From Thermostichus lividus PCC 6715 (GTDB lineage: Bacteria > Cyanobacteriota > Cyanobacteriia > Thermosynechococcales > Thermosynechococcaceae): a DNA stretch of 64,000 nt. Numbering within the stretch: position 1 is the first letter of the stretch; each line of letters opens with the position of its first letter. The notes beneath the pieces were generated by a model that saw only the letters and a program-made list of their open reading frames with translations, had not been told where the DNA came from and did not search any database. This document shows, in pieces, positions 24,997-30,225 of the stretch. The stretch covers positions 1,426,001 to 1,490,000 of the forward strand of contig NZ_CP018092.1 in the NCBI RefSeq assembly GCF_002754935.1. The letters are read 5' to 3'. The position numbers and the translations under genes are program-made.

Positions 24997-25272
24997 CTAC
25001 CATGTGGCGTGCTCTCGCAGCCGCTCTATGAGTTTAGGTCCAATCCCCGGAACGGCGTCCACCTCTGCCCAAGATGTAAAGGGTTTTTTCTGCCGTGCCT
25101 TCAGGATCTCTGCCGCCAGTTTGGGGCCAATCCCCGGTAGGGTTTGTAGCTCAGCCGCGGTGGCGGTATTCAAATTTATCTTGGGGGTACTGCTGCCAGT
25201 GGTTCTCGATGGGGAGCGCGTTTCAATGACCCCGCCGCACTTGGCCAGTTGTTGGGCGATGCGATCGCGCAC
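24997..25272 (-). CDS. ComEA-like helix-hairpin-helix domain, probably the detached C-terminus of the upstream PLD gene
   Basis: Two HhH motifs are present: INLNTATAAELQTLPGIGPKLAAEIL and FTSWAEVDAVPGIGPKLIERL (each 20-odd residues). These bind the DNA backbone, as in ComEA. The frame overlaps the 3' end of the phospholipase D frame by 97 bp and has no ribosome-binding site of its own. One extra C in the C6 tract (plus-strand G6 at 25275-25280) would fuse the two as LPPQ-VRDRIAQQLAKCGGVIE. I therefore read 24997-26690 as one gene broken by a one-base deletion, or by an undercalled homopolymer. Confidence 0.75.
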   Translation of the reverse strand: MRDRIAQQLAKCGGVIETRSPSRTTGSSTPKINLNTATAAELQTLPGIGPKLAAEILKARQKKPFTSWAEVDAVPGIGPKLIERLREHATW

Positions 25273-26690
25273 TTGGGGGGCAATCCTAAACGGCTGTTGG
25301 CGTAGAGCCGCTCAAACTCTCGCTCGTAGTGAGCCGCAACGGTCGGGTGCTCAATCACCAGCAGGAATTCATCATTGCCGCGATTGGCCGCCTCAGACCA
25401 GTTATGGGAGCCAACAATGACGGTCTGACGATCAATCAGTCCATACTTGTGGTGCAGCTTATCCCCTTGGGGAAGGGTTGGGGTTCCCACGGTCGTAAGG
25501 GGAGTCTGCCAAGGTCGATTCCCCGCTTCGTAGTAGCATTGGCTGCGCCCCGCTTGAGCCGTGTTCGCCATGGCCACCCCCAGCATATCTAGCGCCTCAC
25601 TAAAATCGCGGTAGATAAAATCCTCATCGATCAGGGCACGGATGGTGACTCCCCGCTGGTGTTGTGCCTCAAGCACGTCGGACAACTCTTGATCCGAAAA
25701 GACAAATAAAGCCAGATCAATGGCGTGCCGTGCTCTGGCCAGCCATCGGCCAACCAGACCATTGGTGGACTCTGCCCACGGGCGCGATCGCGAGGTCGGA
25801 GAAAAGCGCACCGCCACAATCGCATCCCCCACCTGTACCTGTCGCGTTGGCCGGAGGGGCTTTTGCACGCCGAAGCGGCTATCCAGCTTGCCCCCTGGCC
25901 CATCCCCCCACATGATGTTAAATTCTTCGGTAAATAGTTGCGCCACCGCTGGACTGTCAATGACCAGTAGCGAGTTGGCATTGCCACGGGTTTCCGGTCG
26001 GCCTAGATCGCCGTGAATATCGCTGAGGGTAAAGTTTGCCGTTGTGGCCACCACCCGCTGATGATCAATCACCATAAACTTGTGGTGCATGAGCATACTG
26101 CCCTTTGAGCCATCGGCAGTATCATCGAGCCACGGCACGTGAGCCTGATCAAAAATCGTCAAAACATCGCGTTCCGCTAGCTCTTGGGGGCTAAGATGGC
26201 GATCGCCATTGGTATCCACTAAGGCGTGCCAGTCATCATAGCGCTGCCGCATTCGCGGATCCAGCCGATTCACCATCGCTGGGCTATAGGTTGCCCACGG
26301 CTCGGTATAGGTGTTTTCCATAATCACTCGCACCGGCACTCCCGCTTGCTGTTTAGCTGCCAGTGCCTTGGCTAAATGAGGTAGCCGAAACTCTTGGATA
26401 GCTACATCAATACGGGTACGCGCTGCCTTAACCGCTTCGATAAGAATGGCCTCGAGATCTTCGCCGTCGCGGGTGTAGGGGCGATAGGGTTCCCGATAGC
26501 GATGGGCTTGGGAGTGATTCATATGCACCGCAATCTGGGGGTGTTGCGGCAGCGGCTCTAGGGACGTGGTTACCAACGGACTGGAGCGCAACTGGCTCAG
26601 CACCACGAGGGCAAGGAGCACCCCTATACAAAACAGCGCCAGATAACGCCAGTAGCGGCGCAGAGCATTCCCCAAGAGCATCAACCCCAT
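25176..26690 (-). CDS. Secreted or membrane-anchored phospholipase D-family protein with EF-hand loop
   Basis: 504 residues as read. A hydrophobic N-terminal segment (about 14-33) suggests export or anchoring. Two HKD motifs are complete: HHKFMVID (H202, K204, D209) and HHKYGLID (H413, K415, D420), each followed by the usual Ser/Asn stretch. Between the first strand and HKD1 lies DTNGDRHLSPQE (159-170), a canonical EF-hand calcium loop. The PLD family includes phospholipases and nucleases; the helix-hairpin-helix tail in the next frame points to DNA as substrate. The last ~34 codons (after LGLPPK) are probably out-of-frame readthrough. Confidence 0.85.
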   Translation of the reverse strand: MGLMLLGNALRRYWRYLALFCIGVLLALVVLSQLRSSPLVTTSLEPLPQHPQIAVHMNHSQAHRYREPYRPYTRDGEDLEAILIEAVKAARTRIDVAIQEFRLPHLAKALAAKQQAGVPVRVIMENTYTEPWATYSPAMVNRLDPRMRQRYDDWHALVDTNGDRHLSPQELAERDVLTIFDQAHVPWLDDTADGSKGSMLMHHKFMVIDHQRVVATTANFTLSDIHGDLGRPETRGNANSLLVIDSPAVAQLFTEEFNIMWGDGPGGKLDSRFGVQKPLRPTRQVQVGDAIVAVRFSPTSRSRPWAESTNGLVGRWLARARHAIDLALFVFSDQELSDVLEAQHQRGVTIRALIDEDFIYRDFSEALDMLGVAMANTAQAGRSQCYYEAGNRPWQTPLTTVGTPTLPQGDKLHHKYGLIDRQTVIVGSHNWSEAANRGNDEFLLVIEHPTVAAHYEREFERLYANSRLGLPPKCAIASPNNWPSAAGSLKRAPHREPLAAVPPR

Positions 26691-27178: not shown

Positions 27179-27799
27179 GTGCTGCGTATTCTGATTGTGG
27201 AAGACGACCCCATGATGCAGTTGGGGCTAGAGCAGTCTCTAGCAGGGCAGTTTACGGTGGTGGGCTTTGCTGAGGATGGCTATCGCGGTGTGGGCTTGGC
27301 ACGAGAGCTGCGACCGGATGTTGTGGTCATGGATATTGGCCTACCTGGCTTAGATGGGATTGCGGCAACGCAGCGCATTAAGCAAGAGTTACCAGAGATT
27401 CATGTGGTGATGCTCACGTCCCATCAGTCCGCCCTTGAAGCAGTTGCTGCCCTTTCTAGTGGCGCTGATGCCTATTGTATTAAGGGGGTTACAGTGGAGC
27501 GATTAGTGACGGCGATCGCCGCTGCCTGCGAGGGAGCCACCTACCTAGATCCGCAAATTGCCCGCCACGTGATTCAGCACTTGCGACCAGTTCATCCCCA
27601 ACTTGAGCATTCCCTCTCTCCGCGGGAGTTGGATGTATTGCGGTTAATGGTGGAGGGCTATAGCAACCCAGAAATTGCGGGCAAGCTGTTCCTCAGCCCC
27701 AATACGATTAAAACCCATGTCCGGGGTATCTTAAATAAACTGGCTGTGGACGATCGCGTTCAAGCGGCGGTTGTTGCACTTCGTAACGGCTTGGTATAA
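27179..27799 (+). CDS. NarL/FixJ-type response regulator
   Basis: 206 residues from the GTG at 27179, which has GGAGG five bases upstream. The receiver domain (1-120) has the acidic pair E8-D9-D10, the phosphorylation site D52 (VVVMDIGLPG), T/S at LTS, and K in YCIKG. A LuxR-type HTH fills the C-terminus (SLSPRELDVLRLMVEGYSNPEIAGKLFLSPNTIKTHVRGIL in pieces, about 145-200). No sensor kinase gene lies beside it. The FHA-ABC gene starts 73 bp downstream in the same direction. Confidence 0.92.
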   Translation: MLRILIVEDDPMMQLGLEQSLAGQFTVVGFAEDGYRGVGLARELRPDVVVMDIGLPGLDGIAATQRIKQELPEIHVVMLTSHQSALEAVAALSSGADAYCIKGVTVERLVTAIAAACEGATYLDPQIARHVIQHLRPVHPQLEHSLSPRELDVLRLMVEGYSNPEIAGKLFLSPNTIKTHVRGILNKLAVDDRVQAAVVALRNGLV

Positions 27800-27872
27800 C
27801 TACCCACACGCTTATCGGAGCAGTTGCTACCGTAAAGGAGACCTGTTTATCCGTGCGTTGAGCGTGTGTCCC

Positions 27873-29102
27873 ATGACATCTCAGAGCGATGCAGCAACAA
27901 TTTTAGCCCCCGATGAAGAGTGGCCAGTTTTACAAATTACAACGCCAGCGTCAGTCCAAGAGATTCGCCTAAGTCAACCGCGAATGCGAGCGGGGCGATC
28001 GCCCCACAATGAAATTGTCATTTCCTATCCCACCATTTCGCGGCACCATTTTGAAATCAGTAAAACTGATACAGGCTACACCATTCAGGATTTAGGAAGT
28101 AAATTAGGGTTGCTTTTTGGCGATCGCCCCGTCAACCATAAACATCTCGAGGATGGCGACACATTTTTTATTGGCGCTAACGTCAAATTAGTGTTTCGCC
28201 AATCCCCCGTTAAGATTCTGCAAAAAACGATTCACTTCCAAGGGAAAACGGTTCTGCGCATTGGCCGGAGTGAGGATAACGATATTCAAATCGACCACCC
28301 CCAAATTTCGCGGCACCATGCCAAAATTGAGCGCCAAGGCACCGCCATTGTCCTTAGCGATCTGGGGTCATCTAATGGAGTCTTTTGTAACGGTAAGCGG
28401 CTCACCAAACCCCAATCCCTACGGGTTGGCGATAAAGTGCGCATTGGTCCCTACCTATTGCAAATCAACATTGACGAAACCATTACCGTTGACAACGAAG
28501 CGGGTAGCATTCGCCTCGATGCCTTTGGCCTTGAAAAAGTTGTTAAAGGTAACAAGAAACTGCTGCACGATATTTCCCTATCGATTTTGCCCCGCGAGTT
28601 TGTGGTCATTGCTGGGGTCAGTGGTTGTGGTAAGTCCACCCTTCTCAAAGCCCTGACAGGCTTTACCCCCGCCTCCAGTGGTACGGTTCTCATTAACGGC
28701 AACGACCTTTACCGCCATTTTGATGCCTACCGGTCTGAGTTTGCCTACGTCCCCCAAGAAGATATTGTCCACAAAGAATTAACCGTGGCAGAAGCCTTGA
28801 ACTTTGCCGCTCAGTTGCGGATGCCTGCCGATGTAACTCCCCGTGAGCGTGAGCAGCGGGTTGTAGAGGTCATGGCCATTTTGGGCTTGAGCGATCGCCG
28901 CGATGTCCCTATCAAAAACTTGAGTGGCGGTCAGCTAAAGCGGGTCTCTATTGGTGTGGAATTGCTGACCAAACCCAGCTTATTCTTTCTAGATGAGGCC
29001 ACCTCCGGTTTGGATCCGGGCACCGAAGCAGAGGTCATGTGCTTACTGCGGGGTCTAGCCAATGATGGCTGCACCGTTGTTCTCATTGACACCCTGCACT
29101 AA
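27873..29102 (+). CDS. FHA-FHA-ABC ATPase, truncated before the H-loop
   Basis: 409 residues from the ATG at 27873. Two FHA domains (about 45-110 and 130-205; phosphothreonine-binding SRHHFEI and SRHHAKI) precede an ABC ATPase with Walker A GVSGCGKST, signature LSGGQLKRV, Walker B LFFLDEAT and D-loop SGLD. In this family (ABCG-like, FHA-fused) VVLITHA follows and then a membrane domain. Here the frame reads VVLIDTLH and stops. The switch histidine and the entire transmembrane part are missing, and the WD40 gene begins 12 bp later. A deletion between the two genes is the simplest reading. Even if expressed it should not hydrolyse ATP normally. Confidence 0.85.
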   Translation: MTSQSDAATILAPDEEWPVLQITTPASVQEIRLSQPRMRAGRSPHNEIVISYPTISRHHFEISKTDTGYTIQDLGSKLGLLFGDRPVNHKHLEDGDTFFIGANVKLVFRQSPVKILQKTIHFQGKTVLRIGRSEDNDIQIDHPQISRHHAKIERQGTAIVLSDLGSSNGVFCNGKRLTKPQSLRVGDKVRIGPYLLQINIDETITVDNEAGSIRLDAFGLEKVVKGNKKLLHDISLSILPREFVVIAGVSGCGKSTLLKALTGFTPASSGTVLINGNDLYRHFDAYRSEFAYVPQEDIVHKELTVAEALNFAAQLRMPADVTPREREQRVVEVMAILGLSDRRDVPIKNLSGGQLKRVSIGVELLTKPSLFFLDEATSGLDPGTEAEVMCLLRGLANDGCTVVLIDTLH

Positions 29103-29114
29103 GGGAGGTACCCC

Positions 29115-30225
29115 GTGGCCGCCTTAACCCTGTTGGGGCAGACCCAACTTCAGGACTACGTTACCGCCGTGGCGTGGGGCGATCGCTATCTTTTGGCAAC
29201 CTCTGCCGCAGGGGATGTGTATCAGATTGATCCGCTGTTAGGGGAACAGGTGATCCTGCAACCAGCAACCGAGCAAAGCCTTGATGTGCTTGCGGTCGCA
29301 GGCGATCGCTGGGCGGCGGCTGGCCAGCAAGGACGGCTAATCATCGGCTCTTGGCACGAAGGAGACGATCGCCGTCACCTTCTGAATTATGGTTCAGTGT
29401 GGATCGATCAGCTCGCATGGCACCCGCACCACCCATGGGTGGCCTTTAGCTTGGGGCACTACGTCCAAGTATGGGATGCGGCTGCCGCAGAGGTGATCAC
29501 AACCCTCGACTTTGGCGAGTCCTCCGTTTTAGCACTTGCTTGGCAACCCACGGGAGAGACCTTGGCTGTGGCAGGCTACCGCGGGATTCAGGTGTGGGCG
29601 GTGGCAGATTGGGATGCCGATCCCCTCGCCCTTGGGTTTATGTCCGCCGCTGTGGGTCTCGCATGGTCGCCCCAAGGCGACTACCTAGCCGCCAGCAACA
29701 TGGATCACATCGGGTATGGCTGGAAGCCCCGTACTTCAGTGCGGGGAGGAAAGCTCCTTTAGCAACTTTAGTTGCCTTAGGTTATAATTGTACTGCGGAC
29801 ACCAGAAACGGTTGTTTAAGGCACTGGTAACGGTCGATTGGGGGTGTTGTAAACCACCCCAGAGGCTCGTGGTTGGCTTGCTAACTGCAGGGCTACTAAA
29901 AGCTCCCTGCTTTAGCTGGGAGTAGTTTACGAGCTCCCAAGAGGGGATCATCCTCTGGCAGTTCAGCCCAGAACAGGACAGTTGGCAACCCAATGTCTTG
30001 GAATTACATCGTGGCACCGTGCGAGCGCTGAGCCTACATCCCAATGGCCAAGGCTTTGCCTCCAGCGGGGATGAAGGGTGGCTCTGTCTTTGGCAGCAGT
30101 TGCAACCCCGCCAACTCCTAGATGCTGGGGATGTGAGTGCGCTGGCATGGCATCCCTTAGGGCACTATCTTGCCGCTGGTGGCTGCCAAGGGGAGGTCTG
30201 GGTGTGGAGCGCTCAAGCGGGGTAA
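29115..30225 (+). pseudogene. WD40-repeat protein interrupted by a 224-bp mobile repeat
   Basis: A GTG start with AAGGGAGGT upstream. WD-type blades are visible before the break (AWHPHHPWVAFSLGHYVQVWD; VLALAWQPTGETLAVAGYRGIQVW) and after it (IILWQFSPEQDSW; ALSLHPNGQGFASSGDEGWLCLWQQ; ALAWHPLGHYLAAGGCQGEVWVW). Between them the 224-bp repeat at 29707-29930 shifts the frame and brings stops. The downstream half stays open and ends at 30225. The intact protein would be a beta-propeller of about 300 residues. The two halves do not join perfectly when the repeat is removed, so a few bases were lost or gained at insertion. Confidence 0.82.
29707..29930. repeat. 224-bp non-autonomous IS200/IS605-like element, copy A (inside the WD40 gene)
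   Basis: Runs from ACATCGGGTA to AGTAGTTTAC and is about 97% identical (6 differences counted by eye) to 37633-37856. It has no open frame of note. Read on the minus strand, one end folds as CTACTCCC..GGGAG..GTAG and the other as CCCCG-CACTGAAGTA-CGGGG, resembling the left- and right-end hairpins of IS200/IS605 elements. This is a MITE/PATE-type element probably moved by a TnpA in trans. Confidence 0.82.

Follow-up and report, generated by a model that had tools for sequence, protein, structure and literature searches.

We analyzed a disrupted candidate comA gene, encoding a phospholipase D (PLD)-family protein, in a 64,000-nucleotide stretch of the Thermostichus lividus PCC 6715 genome (contig NZ_CP018092.1, positions 1,426,001 to 1,490,000; hereafter, the window). 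This genome comprises 2.66 Mb in a single contig. The gene lies on the minus strand and is spread over two open reading frames (ORFs). The PLD-bearing part (25176..26690) is an ORF of 504 amino acids, the final 32 of which lie past a frame break and are unlike those of relatives. The out-of-frame remainder, a 91-amino acid ORF (24997..25272), encodes a linker and a tandem helix-hairpin-helix (HhH) tail resembling ComEA. A run of six G on the plus strand (25275..25280) marks the point where the frame ceases to follow the one read in 10 same-genus relatives.

Domain Architecture and Frame Break

The PLD-bearing ORF begins with a hydrophobic membrane anchor (residues 13-34, 26589..26654, minus strand), matched by a helix at residues 2-33 in the model of an intact relative. 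An EF-hand-type calcium loop, DTNGDRHLSPQE, occupies residues 159-170 (26181..26216, minus strand). It precedes the first HKD motif, HHKFMVID (residues 202-209; 26064..26087, minus strand), and the second motif, HHKYGLIDRQ, starts at residue 413 (25425..25454, minus strand). Each HKD motif is followed by Asn within one two-domain chain, as in the PLD superfamily (PF13091), and Pfam places two PLDc_2 stretches in this ORF (E value 1.5e-41). The 91-amino acid ORF carries a Pfam HHH_3 match (E value 4.9e-19), with the (HhH)2 domain proper, the domain type of ComEA, at 25009..25182 on the minus strand. A membrane segment, a calcium loop, two HKD motifs, and an HhH pair in another frame had all been proposed in the original prediction, which was made from the sequence alone, and the Pfam matches and motif positions confirm each of them.

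The calcium loop has the DxNxD...E form of an EF-hand, located from the sequence, and sits between two helices, as judged from the relative's model. Its exact pattern arose in none of 20,000 shuffles of the window protein, and the 57-amino acid piece of the window protein that holds the loop scored 13.6 bits against the Pfam EF-hand cut-off of 25.4. Several family models were likewise missed: the HhH tail fell below both NCBIfam ComEA cut-offs (TIGR01259, 53.6 vs 152.35; TIGR00426, 43.9 vs 53.1), and the window protein fell below that for NucT (NF010492, 62.1 vs 297 bits). Endonuclease_NS, the EndA family (PF01223), was found neither among the Pfam matches of the window protein nor elsewhere in its genome.

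A scan of named genomes returned 124 relatives, and the best 80 of them were taken further; among these 80, Thermosynechococcus supplies the nearest named relatives. A single ORF of 574-581 codons encodes both PLD and HhH in each of the 10 other members of the genus, and anchor, nuclease domain, and DNA-binding domain lie in one chain, the architecture of ComA. In the window, this architecture exists only across the frame break, and no uninterrupted comA reading frame is present. Past the sequence ...SRLGLPP, homology to the relatives exits the PLD frame at the six-base run and continues in the other frame. By this sequence comparison, the frame break is real relative to its kin, as had been suspected.

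Conservation and Predicted Structure

Conservation was counted in an alignment of 54 homologues. The His, Lys, and Asn residues of both HKD motifs are present in all 54, and the Asp of the second motif is present in 53. Positions 1 and 12 of the calcium loop are kept in 52 of the 54, and position 5 is Asp or Asn in 52. Pfam detects PLDc_2 in all 54 of these proteins, HHH_3 in 29, and EF-hand_5 in 16 (E value of 0.01 or better). Calcium dependence of ComA is plausible.

Two Cys residues are similarly constant, Cys383 in 53 and Cys483 in all 54 of the aligned homologues, whether fused to HhH or not. This conservation suggests a disulfide between Cys383 and Cys483 and, hence, an extracytoplasmic protein, which would place the nuclease domain outside the cytosol. 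A lipobox-like motif occurs in 43 of 77 homologues (by a loose pattern) and is absent from the Thermosynechococcus rows, which have a plain membrane helix. The earlier picture of a single exported, membrane-anchored protein that combines a PLD nuclease signature, a calcium loop, and DNA-binding HhH motifs is supported.

An AlphaFold2 model of an intact relative (L020; mean predicted local distance difference test score of 93) contains an N-terminal helix, two PLD lobes, a helix-loop-helix with the calcium loop (helix 143-156, loop, helix 166-172), a loose linker, and the HhH helices. We compared this model with known folds using VIA-align 2, over a region of about residues 43-475 that hardly included the HhH tail. 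The top match was a bacterial phospholipase D (7e0m, Z = 33.9), followed by PLD4 (31.8), PLD3 (31.6), and a poxvirus envelope protein (about 30), with lipid enzymes and polyphosphate kinases lower down (Z = 22-29). The model shares its fold with PLD3 and PLD4 (Z = 30.9-31.8 over 315-332 residues, root-mean-square deviation of 3.0-3.4), a fold that is common to lipid and other enzymes at Z = 22-30. Titles of PLD3 and PLD4 structure entries name a lysosomal 5' exonuclease (PLD3) and also mention bound single-stranded DNA. A PLD3/PLD4-like fold in a predicted model does not by itself prove 5' exonuclease activity.

By sequence profile, the solved relatives include MitoPLD/Zucchini, Nuc, and NucT. 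We also considered the defense-associated PLD protein DrmC. Models of it match the PLD part (best E value 2.3e-13); the NCBIfam DrmC score of 59.1 lies below the cut-off of 133, and this candidate was rejected with the neighborhood not scanned for defense genes. Among phage proteins, the PLD part has matches to two PHROGs with no assigned function (best E value 5.3e-18).

Identification as Cyanobacterial ComA/ComEA

We consider it very likely that the window gene is an ortholog of cyanobacterial ComA/ComEA (Synechocystis slr0197), because of its architecture and because no other ComEA-type HhH protein was seen in the genome. The only HHH_3 match over the cut-off in that genome is this tail; a single weaker match is PsbU-like. 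An ORF reaching position 844 is too long for a bare ComEA. The portion of the slr0197 ORF that has been cloned extends to that position (PMC10667661), and loss of slr0197 is reported to abolish natural transformation in Synechocystis (PMC7690835, PMC10667661). Published accounts describe the slr0197 product as membrane-bound with DNA-binding and endonuclease domains, and a periplasmic DNA-binding endonuclease was predicted in 1999 (via PMC7690421). The ComA/ComEA identity of the slr0197-type protein also draws on PMC5101192, and ComEA is listed for T. elongatus BP-1 in a BLAST study with Synechocystis queries (PMC7292380).

The window protein resembles the slr0197 product in its predicted membrane location and in joining putative periplasmic DNA-binding and endonuclease domains in one protein, and it differs in that its frame is broken. 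This identification supports a role in DNA uptake, which the original prediction had guessed, and corrects its statement that no named system has such a combination of domains. The ComA/ComEA system itself is already known; what is new here is the near invariance of the PLD catalytic residues, the conserved calcium loop, the turnover seen in the HhH tail, and the pairing with a ComEC whose nuclease domain has decayed (see below). The calcium loop, the repeated HhH loss, and the pairing are absent from the excerpted slr0197 accounts. Among the open-licence papers listed for cyanobacterial PLD combined with HhH or ComEA, no title or opening of an abstract calls ComA a strand nuclease, beyond the 1999 endonuclease prediction.

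Several better characterized systems share individual features with this protein. Among PLD-family nucleases, Helicobacter pylori NucT (6ehi) and Salmonella plasmid Nuc (1byr) were matched by profile search. Both are single-HKD enzymes and, to our knowledge, lack a calcium loop and HhH motifs. They differ from ComA in being described as dimers, and NucT activity is reported as cation-independent; NucT is periplasmic and membrane-associated and has been implicated in transformation, with a modest effect, and in purine salvage (PMC5714352). ComEA of Bacillus and Vibrio likewise has an (HhH)2 DNA-binding domain outside the cytosol but no nuclease domain, and the window tail scores below the ComEA models. 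Mammalian PLD3 and PLD4 share the two-HKD fold (Z of about 31) but are only 14-18% identical in the structural alignments; they have type II membrane topology, and we know of no HhH motif in them. A nuclease with a C-terminal (HhH)2 tail derived from ComEA is found in Thioalkalivibrio DNaseTA (PMC4777378), the nuclease domain of which is DNase I-like rather than PLD.

ComEC of the Class Has Lost Its Metal Motif

Degradation of the non-imported strand is reported to be the work of a metallo-beta-lactamase domain in those ComEC proteins that retain it (PMC8579336, PMC12455585). What removes the non-transforming strand when ComEC has no working nuclease domain is described as an open question (PMC8579336). 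We sampled 116 genomes evenly across the phylum, 55 from the window's class and 61 from others. We take the window's class to be Cyanobacteriia and the other classes to be non-photosynthetic, following GTDB.

The ComEC metal motif, sought with the pattern H-x-(H/D/N)-x-x-H, was found in none of the 50 genes for ComEC in the class (29 + 4 + 17; one of the last 17 is present as two contig-end pieces), vs 31 of the 36 examined outside the class, where there are 60. ComEC of the window's genome has no Lactamase_B match in Pfam. The corresponding region of the class nevertheless aligns to the intact domain over 183 columns (E value 8e-7, probability 92%) in a profile comparison that omitted one genome (G033), whereas E values were 0.27-0.57 for four controls, one of them reversed and three shuffled. 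This alignment indicates that the region is a relic and not a missing domain; by sequence, the metallo-beta-lactamase domain of ComEC is decayed in this class. That Cyanobacteria mostly have ComEC without a recognized Lactamase_B domain is already on record (PMC6299819).

PLD-ComA occurs in 50 of the 55 genomes sampled from the class, and none of the 61 others has it. Within the class, PLD-ComA and ComEC are both present in 49 genomes, PLD-ComA alone in 1, ComEC alone in 1, and neither in 4 (Fisher p = 7e-5, with kinship ignored). The window's genome has ComEC (760 amino acids) and a DprA-family gene, both in open frames. EndA-type nuclease genes were found in 14 of the 55 genomes, in none of the 61 others, and not in the window's genome. 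An EndA-type nuclease was rejected as a general alternative on account of this patchiness; it may act where such a gene is present.

A functional parallel exists for a ComEC that works beside a separate nuclease. Streptococcus pneumoniae has a separate membrane nuclease, EndA, together with a ComEC whose beta-lactamase-like domain has lost its metal ligands (PMC5031224, PMC12455585), although EndA is a beta-beta-alpha-metal nuclease and not a PLD protein. H. pylori is reported to lack the ComEC metallo-beta-lactamase domain (PMC12455585, PMC5031224) and has the periplasmic PLD nuclease NucT (PMC5714352).

Outside the class, in four deep lineages, a separate ComEA-like HhH protein of 195-272 codons is encoded on the same strand as the ComEC match, at a distance of no more than about 1 kb. 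A comEA-comEC operon is the classical arrangement. The loci are L119/L178 (G014), L120/L179 (G025), L123/L181 (G011), and L180 (G022); the ComECs of G022 and G025 keep the metal motif, and the pattern has no match in those of G011 and G014. The arrangement outside the class would fit a separate ComEA next to ComEC, and that inside it a fusion of PLD with HhH.

The HhH Tail Is the Variable Part of ComA

We tallied fused, broken, and PLD-only genes by hand from the match lists; the HHH_3 list reached an E value of 2.5e-7, so degenerate tails could escape it. Among the 50 genomes of the class with PLD-ComA, 29 have an intact fusion, 4 (including the window's) have a disrupted gene, and 17 have no HHH_3 match beside PLD. 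One of these 17 (G047) also holds a broken fused copy. Both genomes of a single 2.7-2.8 Mb genus (G039, one of those sampled, and G125, which was not) are without the HhH tail. By motif, the tail is present in 35 of the best 80 relatives. Homologues that never carry HhH, or an HhH gene that is always separate, would have spoken against the proposed fusion; instead, many homologues are fused, and many others end after the PLD part.

A quick tree of 76 PLD cores (34 fused and 42 not) requires no fewer than 10 changes in the state of the HhH tail, and well-supported branches force 4 of these. This tree contains some long branches and omits L088 (a broken gene), L085 (an open end), and the very distant L098 and L099. 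As read from these sequences, the HhH tail has been gained or lost repeatedly while the PLD catalytic residues are near invariant.

A separate ComEA supplying HhH in the PLD-only genomes was considered and rejected, as the candidates read lack an export signal by eye and turn up whether a genome has a fused gene, an unfused gene, or no PLD. They are HhH proteins of 148-213 codons that recur in cyanobacteria and carry VDDWL(R/K)LPG or a slightly altered form of this motif; those read were at L112-L118, L122, and L124 in nine genomes of the class. Judged from these loci, the VDDWL-type proteins appear unlike ComEA because of their missing export signal and their presence regardless of fusion state. 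A search for hidden HhH remnants behind PLD-only genes covered 57 stretches and matched 2, neither of them a PLD-only remnant: L103 is a fused gene wrongly included in the set, and L108 (G084) is a second frame-broken comA. Further PLD-only homologues (L085, L086, L087, L091, L092, L094, and L097), 37-45% identical, are found in Bdellovibrionota and in one Myxococcota genome.

Proposed Role in DNA Uptake

These patterns suggest that ComA rather than ComEC carries the nuclease that removes a strand during DNA uptake. The N-terminal helix, or in other relatives perhaps a lipid, would anchor ComA to the membrane outside the cytosol, where the two-HKD PLD domain, beside the ComEC channel, would cut the non-imported strand. 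In proteins that have it, the (HhH)2 tail would hold the incoming double strand as ComEA does, and a calcium ion bound in the loop may steady an insert of the PLD domain. Throughout the class, the PLD domain would have taken over the role of the ComEC metallo-beta-lactamase domain. The activity on the non-imported strand, the binding of calcium, and the hand-over of function are inferred.

We judge it probable that the window gene is a ComA ortholog with a broken frame and that, in its relatives, the PLD domain cleaves the non-imported strand beside ComEC, a job taken over from the decayed ComEC domain. More tentatively, and with less than even confidence, we propose a class-wide swap in which the ComEC domain is a non-catalytic relic and ComA, a membrane-anchored, calcium-dependent exonuclease resembling PLD3 and PLD4, degrades the non-imported strand; the HhH tail would be optional, and cyanobacterial "ComEA" would be foremost a nuclease. 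The pairing of a decayed ComEC with PLD-ComA may be a single evolutionary event. The co-occurrence of the two across the whole class names a candidate for the missing strand nuclease, and the label ComEA may mislead in cyanobacteria, where the putative nuclease, and not the HhH receptor, is the conserved part.

Several observations count against this interpretation. The link to slr0197 is indirect, since it is drawn from architecture and elimination, and the nuclease activity of ComA is a prediction from domains, conservation, and fold. Lipids are the substrates of many PLD enzymes, some of which rank with the closest structural matches. Loss of NucT has a modest effect on transformation in the published H. 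pylori account. The class contrast in the ComEC motif may reflect a single evolutionary transition, in which case p values that ignore kinship mean little. One genome has PLD-ComA with no ComEC match (G097), and another has ComEC without PLD (G049, which carries an EndA-type gene). ComEC was not found in six of the seven non-cyanobacterial genomes with such a PLD protein, the completeness of which is not stated, and the seventh, a Myxococcota genome (G129), has both the PLD-only L091 and a ComEC that keeps the metal motif. The PLD clade is therefore not tied to competence everywhere, the swap is no general rule, and the clade probably also works in another role.

Alternative Explanations

ComA could instead be a general nuclease for extracellular DNA, serving in feeding or defense with HhH as a tether, while another factor removes the strand. 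PLD-only homologues in Bdellovibrionota genomes where ComEC was not found would fit such a role, as would the reported part of NucT in purine salvage as well as transformation (PMC5714352). We consider it unlikely in view of the co-occurrence of PLD-ComA with ComEC inside the class, the reported loss of transformation without slr0197, and the restriction of EndA-type genes to a quarter of the class (14 of 55). It is less likely still that uptake depends on the HhH tail, as a receptor like ComEA, with a structural or lipid-acting PLD part. The two-HKD lipid enzymes among the nearest folds are consistent with that idea, but it is the PLD catalytic residues that are near invariant and the HhH tail that comes and goes, with no match beside PLD in 17 of 50 sampled genomes or in either genome of the 2.7-2.8 Mb genus.

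As for the frame break, a sequencing error at the six-base run and a real decay of comA are both possible, and we regard the question of whether the gene is in fact intact as evenly balanced. The position of the break at a homopolymer run, the intact gene in all 10 relatives, and the open frames of ComEC and the DprA-family gene favor an error. Against this, two genes within 5 kb are also shortened or split relative to the closest genome, and comA is broken in three other sampled genomes, by a frame break in G084 and by displacement of the gene end from its start in G059 and G071. These disruptions argue that real decay occurs. A functional break, through programmed frameshifting or as a form naturally made of PLD alone, is very improbable. 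PLD-only homologues do exist in many cyanobacteria; the break in the window, however, precedes Cys483, which is kept in 54 of 54 homologues, and hence is no simple mimic of the natural PLD-only forms.

Other Disrupted Genes and Neighbors

In the two genomes with a displaced gene end, the parts of comA are separated as if by insertion or rearrangement, by 53 kb in one (G059:C29) and by about 9 kb in the other (L109, G071). Within the window, three disrupted genes lie within about 5 kb: comA, an FHA-ABC gene, and a WD40-repeat gene. The FHA-ABC gene (27771-29102) seems truncated by sequence comparison, as its match is confined to residues 1-370 of an open stretch of 841 codons in G008, the closest genome, where this stretch is cut at its edge. 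The WD40-repeat gene (29103-30225) occupies two frames, vs one 344-codon ORF in G008. In total, 27 of 412 G008 ORFs match the window, mostly around comA, which is too few for a genome-wide rate of frame breaks. The two direct neighbors of comA are a thioredoxin gene and a YbaB-family gene.
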